Translations under genes and position numbers: made by a program | The notes under the pieces: model-generated | Databases searched by the model: none | Told to the model about the DNA's origin: nothing | What the model saw: only the letters and a program-made list of their open reading frames with translations | Shown here: positions 2,806 through 20,113 of the stretch, in pieces | Numbering within the stretch: the stretch's first letter is position 1 | Layout: each line of letters starts with the position of its first letter | IMG/VR virus record: IMGVR_UViG_3300032282_001007 | Span: 1-20,869 of that record | Length of the DNA: 20,869 nt | DNA from: a virus | Strand: one strand, 5' to 3'

Positions 2806-3039
2806 ATGACGCCCCACGAAGTCAGGAACACAGACGATCTGTTGGCATTTCTGGACAAGGCCGCTGAAAAAGACGGCAAACAATGGTTCGGTTTTCTCCA
2901 ACAGAAGATGACAGGCATCAGCCTTGTCCATCAGATCGCGGCCCGTCACGCCGACAAAATGACCCCCGATGAGATTGTTGACTACGTCAAAGCACTCAAC
3001 AATTCCATTTACACACGAATGATCCGGGGGGGAATCTGA
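2806..3039 (+). CDS. Small helical protein of unknown function in tail operon
   Basis: A 77-residue charged, mainly helical protein between the tail tube and the tail chaperone genes. Segments such as NTDDLLAFLDKAAEKDGKQW and MTPDEIVDYVKALNNS predict three helices. There is no signal peptide or membrane segment. The ATG has a modest AAGAG upstream and the stop lies 1 base before the next ATG, so it is part of the same operon. I do not recognise the family. By place it could be an accessory chaperone or small tail protein. Confidence 0.6.
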   Translation: MTPHEVRNTDDLLAFLDKAAEKDGKQWFGFLQQKMTGISLVHQIAARHADKMTPDEIVDYVKALNNSIYTRMIRGGI

Positions 3040-3040
3040 C

Positions 3041-3559
3041 ATGGCAATCGCAACCAAGTTGGGCCAAAATTACGAGGCCATTCGGGCGGCGGCTCGATTC
3101 AAAGCAATCAAAGTCAAATTCAACGATGTGGAATTTGAATTGAAAGTCCGAATCCCGGTCAAGCGTGAACTGGAAGAAATAACAGCGGCTATCACAAGCC
3201 CCGACAAAGAATATGTGGACAAAATCTATGACGATTTGTCCCGGCCTCTGTTGGCAAGCCTCAAAGACGCCGGTGACGGTTTTCTCGATGCTTTGAATCA
3301 GGATGGCGAAAAAATCAAGATGTTGGACAACGACATTCTTGTGGATGGAACGTCCATCCGGCAGGTAGCGCAAATGTCTGGCGTATGGCACAAGCAGGTT
3401 GAACGGTATTTTTCCCTGCTTCAGTCTGCTACTGGCGAACCGATCAACGAAACCTTTGAGGAAATCTCAGAGGAATTCCCTGAACCGATCATCAGGGAAA
3501 TGGTTGAAAAAATTGAGCAAGCCATTCGACCCAGTTACAAGGAAGTCAAAAAAAACTGA
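3041..3559 (+). CDS. Tail assembly chaperone, short (gpG-like) form
   Basis: A 172-residue acidic protein that should coat or shield the tape measure during tail assembly, as lambda gpG does. The start has a strong upstream GGGGGGAA ribosome site. The N-terminus is a beta segment (KFNDVEFELKVRIPVKREL), followed by helical regions ending in EPIIREMVEKIEQAIRPSY. The last codons before the TGA are AAA AAA AAC, a canonical -1 slippery site, followed by a hairpin, and the reading frame continues in the -1 frame to base 3927. Most ribosomes should stop at 3559 to give this short form; a fraction should slip to give a fusion of about 295 residues. Position just before the tape measure region agrees with the role. 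Confidence 0.8.
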   Translation: MAIATKLGQNYEAIRAAARFKAIKVKFNDVEFELKVRIPVKRELEEITAAITSPDKEYVDKIYDDLSRPLLASLKDAGDGFLDALNQDGEKIKMLDNDILVDGTSIRQVAQMSGVWHKQVERYFSLLQSATGEPINETFEEISEEFPEPIIREMVEKIEQAIRPSYKEVKKN

Positions 3560-3597
3560 GACGATCATTGCGGTCACAAGTCCAAGCCGCAATGATC
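3550..3597 (+). promoter_or_regulatory. Programmed -1 ribosomal frameshift site
   Basis: The heptamer A AAA AAC occupies 3550-3556 in the correct phase (X XXY YYZ) of the gene starting at 3041, immediately before its TGA (3557-3559). After a 6-base spacer, bases 3563-3573 (GATCATTGCGG) pair perfectly with 3587-3597 (CCGCAATGATC) to form an 11-bp stem with a 13-base loop. Loop bases 3580-3584 (GTCCA) could also pair with 3614-3618 (TGGAC), making a pseudoknot possible. Heptamer, spacing and stem are all within the range known for efficient -1 frameshifting, and siphophage tail chaperones are the classic place for it. Confidence 0.88.
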
Positions 3598-3927
3598 TTC
3601 AACGGTCACACAATGGACACCATCGAGCAGATTGACGAAGAAACACTGTCTGAAATCTGCGTGATGTACGCTGACGGCCTTTTGGGTAGCAGAAGCGTTT
3701 ATGAAGCCCTGACGCCCCTGACAACGGCTGTGTTCAACTATATGCGTCCACCTAATGGGCCGCAATATAAATCAACACAGATTTTCCCTTGGGTCATAGA
3801 ATACGACCAGAACCCCGACTTGGATCAAGACAAGGCCCAAGCCGGTCTAATGGCTTTCATGACTTCAGCCCCCGGCTTCAGCATGGAGAGGATCAAAAAT
3901 GGCGACAGTACAAGCGTTTCAAATTGA
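3556..3927 (+). CDS. Tail assembly chaperone extension (T part of GT fusion)
   Basis: This is the -1 frame continuation of the chaperone gene, adding about 123 residues to the upstream protein after slippage at 3550-3556. The reading frame is open right up to the slippery site. Inside it the only independent starts are a TTG at 3568 and an ATG at 3592, neither with a ribosome site, and both fall inside the hairpin, so independent translation is unlikely. The added domain contains IDEETLSEICVMYADGLLGS, then FPWVIEYDQNPD near the end. In lambda the T domain binds the tail tube protein while G binds the tape measure; the same division is inferred here. The 3' end overlaps the next gene by 29 bases. 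Confidence 0.75.
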   Translation: MRRSLRSQVQAAMIFNGHTMDTIEQIDEETLSEICVMYADGLLGSRSVYEALTPLTTAVFNYMRPPNGPQYKSTQIFPWVIEYDQNPDLDQDKAQAGLMAFMTSAPGFSMERIKNGDSTSVSN

Positions 3928-4420
3928 AGGGTTTGAAGAACTGTTCAAGCACATGGAAGACCTCAAGCAAGAAGTGGGGCAAGGCAAAACCGACCGAATC
4001 TGGCGTAATTCCCTGATGTTTGCTTTTTACCCCGTGTTGGAGCGCGCCAGAGCACTTGCGCCGCACGACACCGACCAACTCCGGGATCACCTGTACATCA
4101 AGGTTCATAAGCCCAAAGGCCGCGACAAGGGCGGCAAATATTATGAAGGCGAAATGTACATGGCCCGTGTCACGCTCAACCCCAAGCGAGAGGATTCAAC
4201 ATCCCGAGTGATTTTGAACCGGCGCGGGAAATTTCAGACCATCAATTACAACCGGCCTGTTGGTCTTGCTCAAGAATTTGGGACGGCAAGCAACGGCGGC
4301 GGCAAGCCATTTTTGCGGCCTGCGCTCCAATCGAATGCTAGTGAGGTGGTTGAACGTCTTGGGCGCAAACTCTGGAGCGAACTGAACTCCGGCAAATTCA
4401 CAAAATGGGATCAAAAATAA
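3899..4420 (+). CDS. HK97 gp10-like tail/neck protein
   Basis: A 173-residue protein with the marks of the HK97 gp10 family (PF04883). The N-terminus has GFEELFKHMEDL, followed by a helix that runs into ARALAPHDTDQLRDHLYIKV, corresponding to the family's 'A...aP..tG.L..si...'. Near the end, GLAQEFGTASNGGGKPFLRP then ALQSN matches the family signature 'a.y.EfGT.....qPFlrPA'. A good GGAGAGG ribosome site precedes the ATG at 3899, inside the chaperone extension gene. The location is odd: in HK97 and most relatives gp10 lies between the head closure and tail terminator genes, whereas here it follows the chaperones and touches the tape measure. The role is probably still neck or tail completion. 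Confidence 0.75.
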   Translation: MATVQAFQIEGFEELFKHMEDLKQEVGQGKTDRIWRNSLMFAFYPVLERARALAPHDTDQLRDHLYIKVHKPKGRDKGGKYYEGEMYMARVTLNPKREDSTSRVILNRRGKFQTINYNRPVGLAQEFGTASNGGGKPFLRPALQSNASEVVERLGRKLWSELNSGKFTKWDQK

Positions 4421-6841
4421 ATGGCACAGATCGGCTCACTATCAGTCAAGTTGGGGCTTGTCACCGTTGGGTGGGATCAAGCGACCGACAAGGCCAAACA
4501 GCAGGCCAAACAGCTTCAAAAGTCTTTTGAAGACCTCGGGGGCGGCCTCAAGAAGTTGCAGGACGCATGGAAAACGCTCGGAGGAAGTGTCGGTGTAGGG
4601 TCGCTTGGGCTTGGTGCTTTAATCGCGCAGACGGCATCATTTGCTGACAAGATTGATGATCTTGCGAAAGGGTTTGGGGTCAGCACCGGGTTTGCCCTGC
4701 AATTCAGTCATGCGCTTCAGCAAGCAGGATCGTCCGGCGAGGCGGCTGGCAAGATCATTGGCAAGCTGTTTGAGAACATCGAATCAGCCAAAGAAGGCAA
4801 TCAGCAAGCGGTTGACGGTTTCCGCAGGCTTGGGATCGGGTTTGACGAGATCAAGCGGCTCACGCCTGAAGACGCCATTCGGCGAGTGATTGACGCGCTG
4901 AGTCAAATCCAAGACCCGATTGAGCGCGCCGCACAGTTACGCAAACAGCTTGGCAAAGGCGGTTTGGGGCTTGACCTTGAAGAAGTCAATTCCATCATCA
5001 AAGGCGGCGTAGGCGGTTGGCAGAAATACGGTGACAACCTTGAGCGCGTGAGCAAGATCAAGGACAACCTCACGACAAGCCTGAACAACCTGATGATCGC
5101 ATTCAGCACGTTCATTGGGCCTTTGGCCCGCGATGGAACAGTGTCTGTTGAAAAATTCCAAGGCGCATTAGCAGGCGTTGCTGTTTATTTTGCGGCCTCA
5201 AGATTTGTTGCGGCGGCTCAAGGGTTCATGGCGATTGCTTCAGCCATCAAGGCGACAACAGCGGCGGCTGTCGCTTTCAATGTGGCGACCATCGCAACAC
5301 CTATTGGCGCGTTGTTGAAGCTGGCGGCGGCTGGAACAGCCTTTTTGATCTACCAAAGGGAAACCAAAGGCAAAACAGAGAGTGTTGATGATATTGCGTA
5401 TGACGCAATGGGCAACCCGATCTATTCTGGGGCGTCTGGCTCTGCGACCCCGAAAAACAGCCGTGGCAAAGGCTTTGATGACCCGAGGCTTGCCAAATCC
5501 AATTCATCGTCTGACGCTGGCGCAACATCAGGATTGACTGCTCAAGAAATCGCGGCTGGCGCGGCCCTTGCGGCTGAACGCATCAAAACAGCGAATGCTG
5601 AAGCATTGGCAGGCATCCCGATATGGGATGAGTATTCGCAGAAAGTCGCTGGCATTGGTGTTGAGGCATCTAATGCTCTTGCCGGGTTGAACACACAGCG
5701 CGCTCAATTACAAAATCAATACAAAGACAGCCCGATTCTGCTTGGCATTGAGTTGTCCAAACTCCATCAGCAAGAAAAACAGATCATCATCAATCGTGAC
5801 AGGAAACTTGCTGAAGCCAGAATCACCAAAGATATTTTGGACACAGAAACAGAGCGCGTTCGCCAAGAGGGCTACCTACAAGGCAAGATCAAGCTCACTG
5901 AAGATTTACAAAAGCGGCGACTGGCTACCAACAAGGCAATCCTTGACACGCAGATCAAGGAAATTGATTACGCAACCGAATTGCTCAACATACAGATTGA
6001 GCAGAACATGGCGTTGAACGACAACGAAAAAGCAAGGGCCAAACAGACTGTTGACTATCAGGCAAGCATCGAAAAACTCAGGAAACAGCTTGAGGCTTTG
6101 CCTTCATTCATTGAGGCGTTGCCTGATGAGGAACTGTCGGCTGAAGCCGAGGCCAACAACAATCGAATCATCGCCATACAAAAACAAATGGAGTTTGAGA
6201 AGGCGCGGCACGATTTGCGTATGGGCCAAATGGAAAAAGAACGCACGTTTGAATATGGCCTCGAAAAAGCCGTGAACCAAATCCTTGACCGAGGAACCAA
6301 TGCCGCGCAGATCGCAAGCGATATGGCCAACAGCGTGTTTGGCAACATGGAGGCCGCAATAGACAATTTCGTCAAAACCGGCAAATTTGCTTTTGGCGAT
6401 TTTGCCAAGAGCGTCATCCGGGATTTGATCGCCATTCAGATGAAAGCTCAAGCAGTGGCGATGTTGCGTATGGCGACCGGCGGTGGCGGCGGCATTTTTG
6501 GTTCGCTGTTCGGCGGCGGTTTTAAGAACGATGCTGGCGGCATGGAGGTCGCGGGGTCATTGGGTTTTGCCGATGGCGGCGACCCTCCGGTCGGCAAAGC
6601 AAGCCTTGTGGGAGAGCGCGGCCCTGAACTGTTTGTTCCCAAATCAGCCGGGACAATCATCCCCAACCATTCGCTTGCTGGCATGATGGGCGGCGGTCAG
6701 ACCATCAATTACAACGGCCCGTTTATCCAAAGCATGAACGCAATCGACACGCAGTCCGGGATTCAATTTTTGTCGCGCAATAAACAAGCAGTTTGGGCCG
6801 CAAATCAATCCGCACAGCGTTCATTACCCGTGAGCAAGTGA
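4421..6841 (+). CDS. Tail tape measure protein
   Basis: At 806 residues, this sets tail length and is probably ejected with the DNA. The N-terminus is helical (about 20-60), then comes a segment with FADKIDDLAKGFGVSTGFAL typical of lambda/HK97-type tape measures. Residues about 245-313 form an Ala/Val-rich hydrophobic stretch that could span a membrane. Residues about 430-620 are long charged helices suited to coiled coils. The C-terminus has FAKSVIRDLIAIQMKAQA, a glycine-rich run, and VGERGPELFVP followed by GTIIPNH around residues 730-752, the hallmark end of many tape measure proteins. It starts right after the gp10-like stop with no visible ribosome site, suggesting coupling. About 1.5 angstrom per residue implies a tail near 120 nm. 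Confidence 0.92.
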   Translation: MAQIGSLSVKLGLVTVGWDQATDKAKQQAKQLQKSFEDLGGGLKKLQDAWKTLGGSVGVGSLGLGALIAQTASFADKIDDLAKGFGVSTGFALQFSHALQQAGSSGEAAGKIIGKLFENIESAKEGNQQAVDGFRRLGIGFDEIKRLTPEDAIRRVIDALSQIQDPIERAAQLRKQLGKGGLGLDLEEVNSIIKGGVGGWQKYGDNLERVSKIKDNLTTSLNNLMIAFSTFIGPLARDGTVSVEKFQGALAGVAVYFAASRFVAAAQGFMAIASAIKATTAAAVAFNVATIATPIGALLKLAAAGTAFLIYQRETKGKTESVDDIAYDAMGNPIYSGASGSATPKNSRGKGFDDPRLAKSNSSSDAGATSGLTAQEIAAGAALAAERIKTANAEALAGIPIWDEYSQKVAGIGVEASNALAGLNTQRAQLQNQYKDSPILLGIELSKLHQQEKQIIINRDRKLAEARITKDILDTETERVRQEGYLQGKIKLTEDLQKRRLATNKAILDTQIKEIDYATELLNIQIEQNMALNDNEKARAKQTVDYQASIEKLRKQLEALPSFIEALPDEELSAEAEANNNRIIAIQKQMEFEKARHDLRMGQMEKERTFEYGLEKAVNQILDRGTNAAQIASDMANSVFGNMEAAIDNFVKTGKFAFGDFAKSVIRDLIAIQMKAQAVAMLRMATGGGGGIFGSLFGGGFKNDAGGMEVAGSLGFADGGDPPVGKASLVGERGPELFVPKSAGTIIPNHSLAGMMGGGQTINYNGPFIQSMNAIDTQSGIQFLSRNKQAVWAANQSAQRSLPVSK

Positions 6842-7523: not shown

Positions 7524-8125
7524 ACATCATCCCACCAGTTGACGGCACAAGCAACATCCGAATTGCGGATTTCATTCGCATTAACACCGGTGTTGCTACT
7601 TACAGATTCACGACTGCCCCAAACAACATAACGGTTTCAGCTATTGACTCACAGCCCTTCAATGCGGTCGGTACACTCATGAAAGTCGGCAACGTACAGC
7701 GCGACATCAAAAGCACGGCAAACGAAACCACCGTGACTTTGGTGGGAATTGATACGTCAATGCTTGGTTGGGTGCTTGGACAGCGTGTCAAAGGTTCTGC
7801 CATACAAATGTGGCACGGGTTTTTTGACACCAATGGCTCGCTCATGACTACTGGCGGCACTGGCGGCTTGTATCAATTTTTTGACGGCATCGTCACATCG
7901 TTCGCCATATCCGAACAATGGATGGAAGAAGTCAGGATGTATGTCGGCACGATCACCGTGTCTGCATCATCTATCCAGCTCATATTGCAAAACAGGATCG
8001 CCGGTCGATACACCAACAACAATTCTTGGCAATTCTTCAATAACGGCGATACGTCAATGAATCGTGTTAGCTTCATCGAAACAATCAACTATGCGTTTGG
8101 CAAAGATGCGCCCGCAGGTTCGTAA
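7520..8125 (+). CDS. Minor tail protein, tail-tip complex (gpL-position)
   Basis: A 201-residue protein overlapping the upstream stop by ATGA. It is beta-rich, with a short strand pattern YQFFDGIVTSFAISEQW and then LILQNRIAGRYTNNNSWQFF and GDTSMNRVS. The closing 'gRy.n..swQ.f..gDtsm.rv' is a pattern I associate with phage tail proteins of the DUF2163 / gpL-like position, where a GRY-type motif lies near the end. The gene lies between the tape measure block and the tip attachment protein, so it is probably part of the tail hub. No iron-sulphur cysteines as in lambda gpL are visible. The last 20 bases overlap the acetyltransferase gene. Confidence 0.5.
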   Translation: MNIIPPVDGTSNIRIADFIRINTGVATYRFTTAPNNITVSAIDSQPFNAVGTLMKVGNVQRDIKSTANETTVTLVGIDTSMLGWVLGQRVKGSAIQMWHGFFDTNGSLMTTGGTGGLYQFFDGIVTSFAISEQWMEEVRMYVGTITVSASSIQLILQNRIAGRYTNNNSWQFFNNGDTSMNRVSFIETINYAFGKDAPAGS

Positions 8126-8561
8126 AACATCGCCCTTTGACGTCCCGGCAATACTCGACCTGTTGCGCGAGTATCGGGCCAATATGCCCTATGGGTTTCT
8201 GCAAGACGCAGATGATGCCGAATATGTGACGCAAATGATTACCGAATTGTCTGCTGGCAAAGGTGTTGTCCTTGTGGCAGATGTAGATAACGAAATTGTC
8301 GGCGTGTTGATTGCTGGCATCATGCCAAGCATCTGGTCGCCAAAGCATTTTTTGCTTTCAGAATTTGCCTACTACGTCAAGCAAGAGCATCGAGGCGGCA
8401 CAGCCGGATTTCGCTTGTTGTCTCGCTACCTTGAGGAAGGCGCGAAACTGAAGGAAGACGGGCGAGTGACCAACGTGTTTATAAGCAAAATGGTAAACAG
8501 CCCCGATCTGAATTACGGTCGGTATGGCTTTCAAAAACTTGAAGAATTTTGGGTGATGTAA
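8106..8561 (+). CDS. GNAT family N-acetyltransferase
   Basis: A 151-residue protein of the GCN5-related acetyltransferase fold, which transfers an acyl group from CoA to an amine. From the chosen start the N-terminus reads VRKTSPFDVPAILDLLREY, the usual beta1-alpha1 pattern. A strand VVLVADVDNEIVGVLIAG (54-71) is followed by the acetyl-CoA loop VKQEHRGGTAGFRLL (about 91-105), a variant of R/Q-x-x-G-x-G/A with Thr for the middle Gly. The end, YGRYGFQKLEEF, is the typical 'Y.r.GF' closing. I chose ATG 8106 because it puts beta1 at residue 3; a GTG at 8064 and an ATG at 8091 are alternatives and none has a good ribosome site. It sits inside the tail-tip operon, where lambda has the NlpC/P60-type gpK. 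Its substrate is unknown. Confidence 0.82.
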   Translation: MRPQVRKTSPFDVPAILDLLREYRANMPYGFLQDADDAEYVTQMITELSAGKGVVLVADVDNEIVGVLIAGIMPSIWSPKHFLLSEFAYYVKQEHRGGTAGFRLLSRYLEEGAKLKEDGRVTNVFISKMVNSPDLNYGRYGFQKLEEFWVM

Positions 8562-15877: not shown

Positions 15878-18379
15878 ATGGCAAATAAAATTCAGGTGAA
15901 GCGGTCGGCTGTTCTGGGTAAGCAACCTACGACAGCCGATCTTGATCTTGGCGAGTTGGCTATCAACACGCGAGATGGAAAGCTGTTCATCAAGCAAGAC
16001 AACGGCACTCAACAGATCATTCAGATTGGCGCGACCGGACCCACTGGACCGACTGGTGCAGGTGGTGCGCTTGGTTATTATGGTTCGTTCTACGACACCA
16101 CAAACCAGACGGCGGCAAATACAACGACCGCCTATGTGCTGAACATCAACTCCATTACCGGGAACAATGGCGTCAGCATTGTCAGCGGAAATCAACTCAC
16201 GTTCACTTACGCTGGCACATACTCGATTACGATAAGCGTTCAATTTATCAGCACAGATACGTCAATTCATGACGCTAATTTGTGGCTTCGCAAAAATGGC
16301 GCAGACATGGCTGATTCAAACAGCGTGTTTAGCGTACCGAACAGTCATGGCGGCGTGAATGGCGGTTTGATTGGAACGGTAAATTATGTGTTTACTGTGG
16401 CGGCTGGTGACTACATTCAATTTGTGTGGTCTGTGACTAACGTCAACGTCAGCATTCAAACTGTTCCGTCTAAAGTCAGCCCAACTGTGCCTCGTACGCC
16501 TGCCGTTATTTTGACGGCGCAACAAATCATGTACACACAAGTTGGCCCAACTGGCCCGACTGGTGCGACAGGCCCAACGGGAACTGCGGCAAGCATCGCC
16601 ATCGGCCCTACCACGACAAGTCCGGCGGGTGGTTCTGCAAGCGTGACGAATAGCGGGTCATCTAGCGCGGCTGTACTGAATTTCACTATCCCGACCGGCC
16701 CGACCGGCCCGACTGGCCCGACTGGCACAGCGGGAACGGCGGCGACCGTCAGTATTGGATCAACATCAACACTGATTGCTGGCTCTCCCGCAAGTGTTGC
16801 CAACTCTGGCACATCATCTGCCGCTGTTTTGAACTTTGGCATCCCAGTCGGCCCAACAGGATCAACAGGCCCGACTGGCCCCACCGGCCCCACAGGGCCC
16901 ACAGGGCCGGGAGGCTCTCCGGGGTCTGCCGCAACAATATCTGTTGGAACGACTAGCACTTTGACTGCGGGATCGCCTGCGACTGTTAGCAACAGCGGAA
17001 CATCAAGTGCGGCGGTGTTTAACTTTGGCGTCCCGGCTGGCCCGCAAGGAGCAACGGGGCCACAAGGGCCTCAAGGAATTGCGGGGCCAACGGGGCCAAC
17101 GGGGCCGGGAGGCCCTCCGGGGCCTACGGGGCCTACGGGGCCAACAGGGCCTACGGATTATTCCACCACTGCCGCGCCTTGGTCATTATCCGGCGGTGGT
17201 TCAGTTACTTGGAGTTCAAGCACAGGTGTGGTGTCTTGGAGTGCGCGAGTTATCGCCATCCCGGTTAACAAATCTTTTGGATCGTCTGGCTATTTTGATA
17301 TTGGTCCAGCGTCTTACACCATGTCGGCATGGTCAACGCTGTATTACGTTCCAACATCTGGCTCTGCTTACACTTACAACTCTGGTTTTTTTGTGTTGAA
17401 GGTTTACACAGATAACCAAGTTATTGCCGCAAACTGGATTCCAATTTGTACTTGGAACGGCGACACAAATGCGCTCCGTTGGAATCCCGGTTTCACGGAC
17501 ATTCCAAACGGCGGCACATACACTTCTTCAACGGCGCAACGCTCTTGGGCTATTGGCCCAACCGGCCCCACTGGCCCAACCGGCCCCGGTGGCGGGATTG
17601 GCCCCCCAGGGCCTCCGGGTGGCCCAGGCACGGCGGCAACAATAACTGTTGGCACGACAACAACTGGCCCGGCTGGTAGTTCAGCGGTTGTTACAAACAC
17701 CGGCACGTCTAGTGCGGCTATTTTCAATTTCACAATTCCTACTGGCCCGACCGGCCCGACTGGCGGGACAGGCCCCACAGGGCTCACGGGGCCGACAGGC
17801 CCGACAGGGAGTCCGGGGCCGACAGGGAGTCCGGGGCCAACGGGGCCAACTGGTTCTACTGGTTTGGGGTATGCAAGCACTACCTCAACAAGTTCTGTGG
17901 TTGTTGGCACCGGGTCTAAAGTCTGGTCTGTTGCTAATACCGGAGCTTTTATTGTTGGTGACCGTGTTCGCGTAATTGCCGTTTCTACCGTAACTTGGGT
18001 GGAAGGCAACATCACTGCACTAACCACAAACTCATCTATTACGGTAAACGTAGATGCTTTCAATTTGTCCGGTGGCCCCACGTTTACATCTTGGGCATTT
18101 TCTATTGCGGGCATTTCTGGAACCCTTGGGCCAACGGGCCCCACTGGCCCCACAGGCCCCACAGGGAGTCCGGGCCCCACAGGCCCCACAGGCCCGGTCG
18201 GGCCTCCGGGTTCAGGGGCTAGTGCGGCGGCTGGTGGTGCTGTGTGGGAAAACACTCAGACGATTTCCGCAAACTACACAATGACTACCAACTACAACGG
18301 CGTTTCTGCTGGTCCAATTACGATTGCCACCGGGGTTACTGTTACGATACCAACCGGATCGTCTTGGTCTGTTGTTTGA
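15878..18379 (+). CDS. Collagen-like tail fibre protein
   Basis: An 833-residue mosaic fibre. Residues 1-50 ([26 protein letters not shown]) resemble the start of the preceding fibre. After a short Gly-X-Y run comes a jelly-roll-like domain (about 64-220; [37 protein letters not shown]) similar to C1q/TNF-type heads. Seven further Gly-X-Y blocks, mostly Gly-Pro-Thr, alternate with four exact 36-residue repeats (16586-16693, 16739-16846, 16928-17035, 17633-17740) and two globular inserts (about 427-558 and 664-750; the latter with [17 protein letters not shown]). About 65 Gly-X-Y triplets in total. The last 45 residues match the C-terminus of the fibre at 11867. Triple-helical trimers are expected. 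Strong AAAGGGGAT ribosome site. A 2OG oxygenase gene follows 10 bases later. Confidence 0.88.
16028..18216 (+). repeat. Eight Gly-X-Y (collagen) blocks
   Basis: Blocks at about 16028-16063, 16544-16585, 16697-16738, 16850-16927, 17039-17155, 17555-17632, 17744-17866 and 18128-18216. Gly-Pro-Thr is the main triplet, with some GPQ, GPP, GSP and GAT. Proline is almost always in the X position; only about nine triplets have proline at Y. Codon choice changes by block (GGC-rich in some, GGG-rich around 17039-17155), and 15-base DNA repeats are visible near 17805-17835. Confidence 0.85.
16586..17740 (+). repeat. Four 108-bp (36-aa) repeats within the collagen-like fibre
   Basis: Copies lie at 16586-16693, 16739-16846, 16928-17035 and 17633-17740, all exactly 108 bases and in frame. 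Each encodes AA(S/T)(I/V).(I/V)G.T.T...G..A.V.N(S/T)G(S/T)SSAA(V/I).NF.(I/V)P and is flanked by Gly-Pro-Thr blocks. The DNA has diverged more than the protein, so the duplications are old and the protein is under selection. They look like beta-hairpin knobs along a collagen rod. Confidence 0.85.
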
Positions 18380-18389
18380 AAGATAAGAT

Positions 18390-18938
18390 ATGACACAACA
18401 TTTGCCAATTTGGTATTTGGGGGCAATCGCCCCTGAAATGTGCGACAAAGCAAAACAAGACATGATGTCTTTGCCTATGGTCGATGCCGCTATGGGTATT
18501 GATGGCGATGTCAAAATTGAATCACAGCGCAACACTGATGTGGTGTTTGCGCCATTCGATTTTTGGCTTGCCGACTATATGGAACAGTTTGCTTCAATCG
18601 CCAACGCCGAAAGTAATTGGGGCTATGAAATACCGGGCAGGGAGGCAATTCAATTTGCCCAGTACGGTGTCGGGCAACACTACGATTGGCACGTTGATTA
18701 TTTTCCTCTGGCTGGCAAAGACACCGACCGCAAAGTCTCTGTGGTTTGCCTGTTGAACGACCCGTCAGAATTTGAAGGCGGCGAATTCCAGTTGCGGCTG
18801 TACTCTCAATACACCGCACCACTGGTCAAGGGAAGCATCATTGCTTTCCCCTCAATCCTTGAGCACCGTGTCACGCCCGTTACAAGCGGTGTTCGTTATT
18901 CAGCCACGATGTGGTTTCACGGGCCGAGGTTCAGATGA
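18390..18938 (+). CDS. 2-oxoglutarate/Fe(II)-dependent oxygenase, prolyl hydroxylase-like
   Basis: A 182-residue dioxygenase that should use Fe(II), O2 and 2-oxoglutarate to hydroxylate a substrate. The metal triad is His101 and Asp103 (in HYDWHVDYFP) and His159 (in FPSILEHRV). Arg169, ten residues after the distal His in SGVRYSATMW, is the usual 2-oxoglutarate anchor. SVVCLLNDPSEFEGGEFQL lies between, as in PiuC/prolyl-4-hydroxylase-type enzymes. Full length for the compact phage type, with all key residues present, so it should be active. It begins 10 bases after the collagen-like fibre gene and overlaps the next gene. Proline hydroxylation of that fibre is an attractive inference; many phages carry related enzymes of unknown substrate, so this is not proven. 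Confidence 0.9.
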   Translation: MTQHLPIWYLGAIAPEMCDKAKQDMMSLPMVDAAMGIDGDVKIESQRNTDVVFAPFDFWLADYMEQFASIANAESNWGYEIPGREAIQFAQYGVGQHYDWHVDYFPLAGKDTDRKVSVVCLLNDPSEFEGGEFQLRLYSQYTAPLVKGSIIAFPSILEHRVTPVTSGVRYSATMWFHGPRFR

Positions 18939-19140: not shown

Positions 19141-19671
19141 ATGGTTCAGGGGGCCATTAGTGGCGTCCGAAAATTGTGTGCCGTGGTCAAAGAGGCGCAA
19201 GCCGCAGGAAAAGAAGTTGCCGACCTTACAAGTCAGGTAACAGGGTTTGTGAGCAAGGTTCTTGAGGGCAATGACAAACTTCAAAAAGCCGAACAAGAAC
19301 TCAGGATCAACCCCCCCAAAGACAAGAGCTTACAGGTACTGGCCTTTGAAGAAGTGTCCAGAAAACTTGAGCTGAAAAAACAATATGCTGAGTTGCGGAA
19401 CATGATTATTTATGAACTGGGTTTGCCCGGCGGGTTCTGGGCAGACTTTGAAGCAACTTTGCAACGCATGGAGGAAGATGACAGGATCGCCAAGGAAGAA
19501 GCAGAGTTGCAAAGGGTTCATGAGGAATGGCAACGCAAAGAGGCAAAAGACAAGCTGGTAACGGGCGCGGGGCAGGCGGCGGTGGTTCTGCTTGGGGCGG
19601 CGTATCTCGCTCTGCTTCTATGGGCAATTCGCCTGCATCGGGAGAATCAGTTGTCATTACCTTGGGGTTGA
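19141..19671 (+). CDS. Coiled-coil protein with C-terminal membrane segment
   Basis: A 176-residue protein from ATG 19141. It begins with an amphipathic helix (GAISGVRKLCAVVKEAQAAG), continues with long charged helices (about 40-135, e.g. AELQRVHEEWQRKEAKDKLV), and has one membrane segment near 145-162 (AAVVLLGAAYLALLLWA). The ATG has no ribosome site. Upstream in frame the sequence reads IDPITAFA from an ATA at 19117, preceded by a perfect AGGTGAT ribosome site at 19106-19112 and a TGA stop at 19114. Proteins I recall of this type begin M-DPITAFA, so the true start may be the ATA. Related proteins occur in phage lysis or tail-end regions but I know no proven role. Confidence 0.65.
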   Translation: MVQGAISGVRKLCAVVKEAQAAGKEVADLTSQVTGFVSKVLEGNDKLQKAEQELRINPPKDKSLQVLAFEEVSRKLELKKQYAELRNMIIYELGLPGGFWADFEATLQRMEEDDRIAKEEAELQRVHEEWQRKEAKDKLVTGAGQAAVVLLGAAYLALLLWAIRLHRENQLSLPWG

Positions 19672-19805
19672 TCGTATGTATGTTGTGCCTTGTTGGATTT
19701 ATTACGCTCACTGGTTTTCTGTATGCTGACTTACAAGCGGCCCGTGGCGCAAACAAGCTGATTGAGCGCAAAGTCAAAGACGTTATTGAAAGGTGTGACA
19801 AATGA
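19620..19805 (+). CDS. Small single-span membrane protein
   Basis: A 61-residue protein with one strong membrane segment (VVITLGLIVCMLCLVGFITL) near the N-terminus and a basic/acidic tail (ANKLIERKVKDVIERCDK). The first 52 bases overlap the previous gene in another frame. An ATG at 19527 would extend it by 31 residues of Gly/Arg-rich sequence that looks like a frame shadow, so I prefer 19620, though no ribosome site is seen. The stop overlaps the next start (ATGA). A small holin-like or accessory membrane protein is the best guess. Confidence 0.55.
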   Translation: MGNSPASGESVVITLGLIVCMLCLVGFITLTGFLYADLQAARGANKLIERKVKDVIERCDK

Positions 19806-20113
19806 GTGAAGAATTCAAAGCCAAACATGAGCTGATTGAAAAGGCGGCGTTTGCTGTGCTGCCAATCATGTTTACTTGCGTGGTGTATTTGATGTCTGCA
19901 CTCAACACATTGAATCATGAAGTCACGGTGTTGAATAACAAAATCAGTTTGGTAGTGACAAGCGACAACAAGCAAGCCTCCAACACTGGTGCTGAATTGG
20001 CGCGTGAGAAACTGCGGCAAGACCTTGAAAAAGAAATACAAAAAAACCGTGATGACATTGCACACAATCGGCAAGACATTGCGGTGATTCATGAACGACT
20101 GAAAGGCAAATGA
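19802..20113 (+). CDS. Membrane protein with coiled coil, possible inner-membrane spanin
   Basis: A 103-residue protein: a short charged N-terminus, a membrane segment (AAFAVLPIMFTCVVYLMSAL, residues about 15-34), then a coiled-coil tail (LAREKLRQDLEKEIQKNRDD, IAVIHERL). This N-in, C-out layout is that of Rz-type i-spanins, which join inner and outer membranes at lysis, but no lipoprotein partner with a lipobox was found nearby. It overlaps both neighbours by ATGA-type junctions. An alternative is a holin accessory protein. Confidence 0.55.
   Translation: MSEEFKAKHELIEKAAFAVLPIMFTCVVYLMSALNTLNHEVTVLNNKISLVVTSDNKQASNTGAELAREKLRQDLEKEIQKNRDDIAHNRQDIAVIHERLKGK

Follow-up and report, generated by a model that had tools for sequence, protein, structure and literature searches.

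A predicted −1 ribosomal frameshift in a tail chaperone gene pair of an environmental phage, and divergent slip-site signals among its relatives

Introduction

Are the two overlapping reading frames that precede the tape measure gene in this phage DNA joined into one protein, and if so, by what kind of slippage? In phage lambda, the tape measure gene is preceded by a pair of overlapping ORFs linked by a −1 shift at the end of the first, yielding G and a longer G-T product. Such G/GT frameshifting of tail assembly chaperones is well known in tailed phages and has been reviewed, with the original work of Xu, Hendrix and Duda cited there (PMC5009743). Here, we examine a candidate pair of this kind in the window, by which we mean the whole stretch of DNA analysed (20,869 nucleotides of the virus record IMGVR_UViG_3300032282_001007). 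An initial annotation of this DNA had proposed a −1 frameshift cassette in the tail chaperone gene, just before its stop, a proposal that comparison with relatives strongly supports through reading phase, slip motif and coding constraint ahead of the first ATG of the second frame. We conclude that the window very probably carries the G/GT pair of a long-tailed phage, with a predicted −1 ribosomal frameshift that would draw on an SD-like site, a slippery heptamer and a stem.

Results and discussion

Reading frames and predicted products

The two frames and the site at which they would be joined are as follows.

3041..3559, + strand: gene G, a putative tail assembly chaperone of 172 aa by standard decoding; its ATG has a strong SD (−10 kcal/mol), and it has hundreds of relatives
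3556..3927, + strand: T, an extension of 123 residues read in the −1 frame and joined to G in a predicted 295-aa product; synonymous codon pattern before its first ATG
3550..3556, + strand: slippery heptamer A_AAA_AAC, in the zero frame and directly 5' of TGA; kept as A_AAA_AAC/T or swapped for another slippery motif in relatives
3548..3555, + strand: run of eight A holding the slip site, the sole A run of at least eight in the window, from a run count and comparison with relatives that have nine A

The G ORF ends in GTC AAA AAA AAC TGA, with TGA at 3557-3559, and the −1 frame is without a stop from 3517 until the one at 3927. The coordinates bear out the 172- and 295-residue products foreseen in the initial annotation (172 and 172+123 residues, with the junction ...EVKKN-LRRSLRSQ...), and its description of A AAA AAC in phase before the stop with a 6-base spacer is exact (heptamer 3550-3556; spacer 3557-3562, 6 nt). 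As a bare motif, AAAAAAC is no more frequent in the whole window than chance would have it (7 found, 7.6 expected).

Directly 5' of G lies a 77-aa ORF (2806-3039) that has no profile match and a homologue in 149 of the 155 distinct loci described below. A run of seven G near its end (3026-3032, CGG GGG GGA) is the strong SD of G; the in-frame reading there is G_GGG_GGA.

Signals around the slip site

Around the heptamer, the window holds the following candidate signals.

3539..3545, + strand: AAGGAAG, a putative SD-like stimulator upstream of the slip site; anti-SD duplex −5.4 kcal/mol
3563..3574, + strand: 5' arm of the stem (11 Watson-Crick pairs and one U-G), beginning 6 nt after the heptamer
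3586..3597, + strand: 3' arm of the stem, which is stronger than under synonymous recoding (p<0.01)
3580..3584, + strand: proposed pseudoknot arm, GTCCA, complementary to TGGAC at 3614-3618; present, unsupported

SD-like site, slippery heptamer and stem are all present (3539-3545, 3550-3556, 3563-3597), the first of them having been overlooked in the initial annotation. The perfect 11-bp stem described there is reproduced exactly, with GATCATTGCGG (3563-3573) perfectly paired with CCGCAATGATC (3587-3597) and a U3574-G3586 wobble adding a twelfth pair. This stem is stronger than those of dinucleotide shuffles (z = −2.96) and of sequences recoded synonymously in the −1 frame (z about −3; helix p<0.01). 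The 5-bp pseudoknot arm suggested alongside it is a different matter: the complementarity of 3580-3584 with 3614-3618 is there, but it is no better than chance under synonymous recoding (p = 0.22) and is significant in 4% of relatives, and we reject the pseudoknot. An Rfam search of the window returned no match.

Gene neighbourhood and protein identity

Downstream of T, two further genes place the pair within a tail module.

3899-4420: tail-completion gene (gp10-like, phrog_5), which shares 29 nt with T and precedes the tape measure gene
4421-6841: lambda-type tape measure gene, downstream of G (3041-3559) and T (to 3927)

It is the position before the tape measure gene, together with the frameshift, that makes a chaperone pair the likely identity of G and T, with the fold comparison being suggestive. 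When an AlphaFold2 model of G (pLDDT 82.5, pTM 0.73) was compared with solved structures using Foldseek, the HK97 tail chaperone 2ob9 came at rank 2 as a weak match (prob 0.35, E 0.99), and comparison with BFVD gave several named chaperones whose prob of about 0.9 went with E-values no better than 0.06; for T, no match to the model was found among solved structures. Pfam, PHROG and PDB sequence searches gave no name for the G or T of the window and no chaperone profile match, while in two relatives there is a match to PF23789 Pre_tape_measure (best E 5.7e-5). As known tail assembly chaperones share little sequence (PMC5009743) and no profile was matched, our claim is one of lambda-type kind rather than of a profiled sequence family: the pair appears to represent a new family within the known G/GT kind, one that existing profiles do not cover.

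Several other features of the window deserve mention in their own right. A GNAT acetyltransferase domain (8100-8561; PF00583, 8.4e-6) lies within the tail module, an 833-aa protein with collagen-like GPT repeats (15878-18379; PF01391, 3e-19) is probably a fibre, and a 2OG-Fe(II) oxygenase domain (18390-18938; PF13640, 1.5e-20) is found near tail-fibre genes. Two small ORFs of 92 and 103 aa (19527-20113), with no convincing profile match, are possibly lysis genes; the first overlaps the end of an ORF of 176 aa that lies in a different frame.

Conservation of phase and slip motif among relatives

The relatives come from viral contigs, the annotated phage P19250A and two MAG contigs, the last being all that a genome scan contributed; several loci are overlapping pieces of one contig, and the 377 loci collapse to 155 distinct junctions. 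T stands at −1 to G in every locus holding both parts, 169 of 169 initially and 377 of 377 in the enlarged set, and across these loci and junctions the second frame is nearly always accompanied by a slippery motif at the stop of G. In the first set (n=123), the motif before this stop is A_AAA_AAC or AAT at 80 junctions, G_GGA_AAC at 36 and something else at 7, these last comprising five A_AAG-type sites, one A_AAA_AAA and L107, which has lost the usual G stop with A_AAA_AAC still in place. Codon choice within the motif is strict: both Lys codons of the slip site are AAA in 73/73 cases, and the Gly codon of the G-type sites is GGA in 36/36, though GGA accounts for only 73 of the 548 Gly codons there. 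Conservation of the heptamer in homologues had been named as a check in the initial annotation, and we find that it is either kept or has given way to a different slippery motif.

A tree of the joined G and T proteins divides the family into two sides. On the first are the G_GGA_AAC, A_AAG-type and R-K-N groups, whose slippery heptamers are mostly G_GGA_AAC; on the second is the clade of the window, with K-K-N slip sites. The G_GGA_AAC group makes up one side of a branch (97/98). Gene order differs as well, with the gp10-like gene placed before G in 31/31 G_GGA_AAC loci, as it is in P19250A (L001 5347-5901), and following T, ahead of the tape measure gene, in 55/55 of those K-K-N loci in which all of these genes could be placed.

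A covarying stem in the sister clade

All 36 members of the G_GGA_AAC group share a stem formed by positions 7-18 with 40-51 after the stop. Taken together with the A_AAG-type group, and with the row from phage record L001 left out of the folding alignment, this 12-bp stem is 99.7% paired and shows changes on both sides at 4 pairs (covariation). The G_GGA_AAC group is also enriched for an SD-like site about 13 nt upstream (mean −5.74 vs −2.97 kcal/mol for recoded sequences), in the same place as the AAGGAAG of the window; no such enrichment was seen for the A_AAG-type group. The G_GGA_AAC sister clade has no A run at its slip site.

Nine-A runs and eight-A exceptions in the clade of the window

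Slip sites in the window's own clade are of another make. Among the K-K-N junctions of the first set, 70 of 73 carry a run of nine A, where codon usage predicts a third-position A in 22.5, and in the larger set the run is exactly nine A in 100/106 (third-position A in 101/106). No other run of at least nine A is present in 502 kb of these loci, compared with 45 in one first-order Markov simulation. The nine-A relatives have a mean SD-like energy of −0.92 kcal/mol, with just 1 of 100 at −4 or lower, and their folding is slightly stronger than that of recoded sequences (z = −0.95, se 0.11); in the clade, only about one-third have a helix better than recoding. The idea that the window-type stem is common to its clade was rejected. 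When its conservation was checked, as the initial annotation had advised, the stem turned out to be shared only with close kin and with a minority of the clade, and to be 59.8% paired with no covariation in the wider clade.

Within this clade the window is an exception, having eight A, the SD-like AAGGAAG and the strongest stem score. The three eight-A junctions of the first set (the window, its near-copy and L108) have the three strongest helices, and three further enlarging scans produced two new ones, L180 and L196, each of which combines an SD-like site with a significant stem, though for L180 one mismatch in the stem has to be allowed. With near-copies counted once, an SD-like site and a strong stem are found in 4/4 eight-A lineages. 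A further locus, L063, has lost the run by another change and carries A_AAA_AAA with seven A only; it has a significant helix, no SD and a folding z of +0.5. Counting L063 with the eight-A rows, an SD-like site at −4 or lower is present in 4/5 vs 1/100 of the nine-A rows (Fisher p = 5e-6), and the helix score differs between the two with p = 0.0008, both comparisons ignoring kinship. The association of the stem with eight A was tested on held-out data, and that of the SD-like site was noticed only after the larger set had been assembled. In a quick tree, the eight-A rows (L063 included) are not one clade: starred branches force at least two changes, and the tree needs four. The apparent trade-off between nine-A run and SD-plus-stem is statistically clear as a count, though drawn from few lineages whose independence is not proven. 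What is new here is a dichotomy within one family, with a heptamer and a covarying stem (and an SD-like site in the G_GGA_AAC group) on one side and a run of nine A with neither SD-like site nor shared stem on the other.

Ribosomal or transcriptional slippage

The foremost alternative for the window is that RNA polymerase adds an extra A within the run of eight or nine, fusing G and T in some mRNAs with no need for a ribosomal slip. A length-conserved run of nine A has been taken as very likely purposeful transcriptional slippage (PMC1088944), and A runs longer than 7 are used as, or listed for, the same (PMC3711429), so the relatives, in which such a run is kept far above codon-usage expectation, avoided elsewhere and unaccompanied by SD-like sites or a shared stem, fit published criteria. 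The window itself, however, has eight A rather than nine, plus an SD-like site and a strong stem, and the sister clade has no run whatever. Even the nine-A members fold slightly better than recoded sequences, and with nine A the ribosome is offered two slip sites (A_AAA_AAA and A_AAA_AAC) instead of one, which would need no polymerase slippage. We thus regard polymerase slippage as an improbable account of the window.

For the nine-A relatives, transcriptional slippage and a doubled ribosomal slip site are both plausible readings of the sequence. The conserved run suggests transcriptional slippage there, while L063, with seven A only, favours ribosomal slipping at least in that locus. We tentatively suggest, while holding it somewhat doubtful, that lineages with this one orthologous gene pair switch between a ribosomal signal and a nine-A run working largely by RNA-polymerase slippage, and that the window is among the few lineages of the nine-A clade that have or keep the ribosomal signal.

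Separate initiation or a broken gene

T could also be a separate protein made from an internal start (TTG 3568, ATG 3592 or ATG 3613) with no frameshift. An ATG equivalent to 3592 is present in 103/121 relatives, and the depositors of P19250A annotated T as its own gene from the equivalent ATG. Consistent with the initial annotation, which saw in the open downstream frame no plausible start of its own, the candidate starts in the window have SD energies of only −1 to −3 kcal/mol, as opposed to −10 for G, and some relatives have CTT, GTC, GTT, ATC or GCC where others have the ATG. Moreover, codons 2-11 after the slip, all of which precede the T frame's first ATG, evolve as −1-frame coding sequence: of the codons differing by a single base, 83% are synonymous when read in this frame vs 11% and 4% in the others, and no −1-frame stop occurs there in 121 sequences. 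As this stretch between slip and ATG is constrained in the −1 frame, lacks an SD and is followed by no start in some relatives, internal initiation cannot explain its conservation. The slip motif is conserved too, and we consider a separate T very unlikely.

That G and T were once a single gene now decayed, or are one gene split by a sequencing error, with an indel in an A run of the kind prone to indels in both replication and sequencing, is refuted by the comparison of 377 loci, in which the −1 phase is universal across many samples and across sites with and without an A run, with coding constraint on both sides, and this reading retains practically no likelihood.

Proposed mechanism

Classical −1 ribosomal frameshifting with three elements looks to be the simplest reading of the window. 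The elements are present, the −1 phase is universal and T is under coding constraint upstream of any start; counting against this reading, the exact stem of the window is not conserved in its clade and eight A could also permit transcriptional slippage. Under ribosomal frameshifting, most ribosomes would terminate at TGA 3557-3559 and release the 172-aa chaperone G, while a minority decoding AAA-AAC would shift back one base onto AAA-AAA and read on in the −1 frame, giving the G-T fusion of 295 aa. The slip would be promoted by the SD-like AAGGAAG just upstream and by the hairpin of 12 pairs that starts 6 nt downstream. G, in excess, and the less abundant G-T would then chaperone the tape measure protein and the major tail protein during tail assembly. 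We infer both the ribosomal nature of the shift in this phage and its efficiency, and the chaperone role of G and G-T would follow from gene position and established knowledge of lambda.

Comparison with known systems

While the arrangement is that of lambda G/GT, the window differs in having A_AAA_AAC directly before the stop, in showing no detectable sequence similarity to profiled chaperones and, with its clade, in having a gp10-like gene between T and the tape measure gene. The E. coli dnaX −1 signal consists of an SD-like site, a slippery heptamer and a stem, in that order. The window has elements of all three kinds, likewise in that order, but its heptamer is A_AAA_AAC rather than A_AAA_AAG, and its shift would lead to the longer product. 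Transcriptional slippage at nine A is used by Thermus dnaX and IS elements (PMC1088944, PMC3711429); the nine-A relatives are like these in having exactly nine A in a two-frame gene and avoiding such runs elsewhere, whereas the window combines eight A with an SD-like site and a stem.

Among annotated phage records, relatives of both G and T were found in Methylophilaceae phage P19250A (KX815270) alone. Its genes P19250A_0013 and _0014 (L001 5911-6722) have the same −1 arrangement as the window and are annotated as separate hypothetical proteins, with no frameshift noted; our comparison indicates that they are a G/GT frameshift pair. They differ from the window in an A_AAG-type slip site before TAG, a distal stem as in the G_GGA_AAC group and the upstream placement of the gp10-like gene.

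Conclusions

With these results, a large and unprofiled family of environmental phages joins those for which G/GT frameshifting is predicted. Where the pair is annotated as two separate genes, as it is in P19250A, the fusion is overlooked. There is also a natural experiment in this family, in which the same fusion is apparently reached either by a run of nine A or by an SD-like site plus stem, and in which the trade-off between polymerase and ribosomal slippage may be compared in close relatives.
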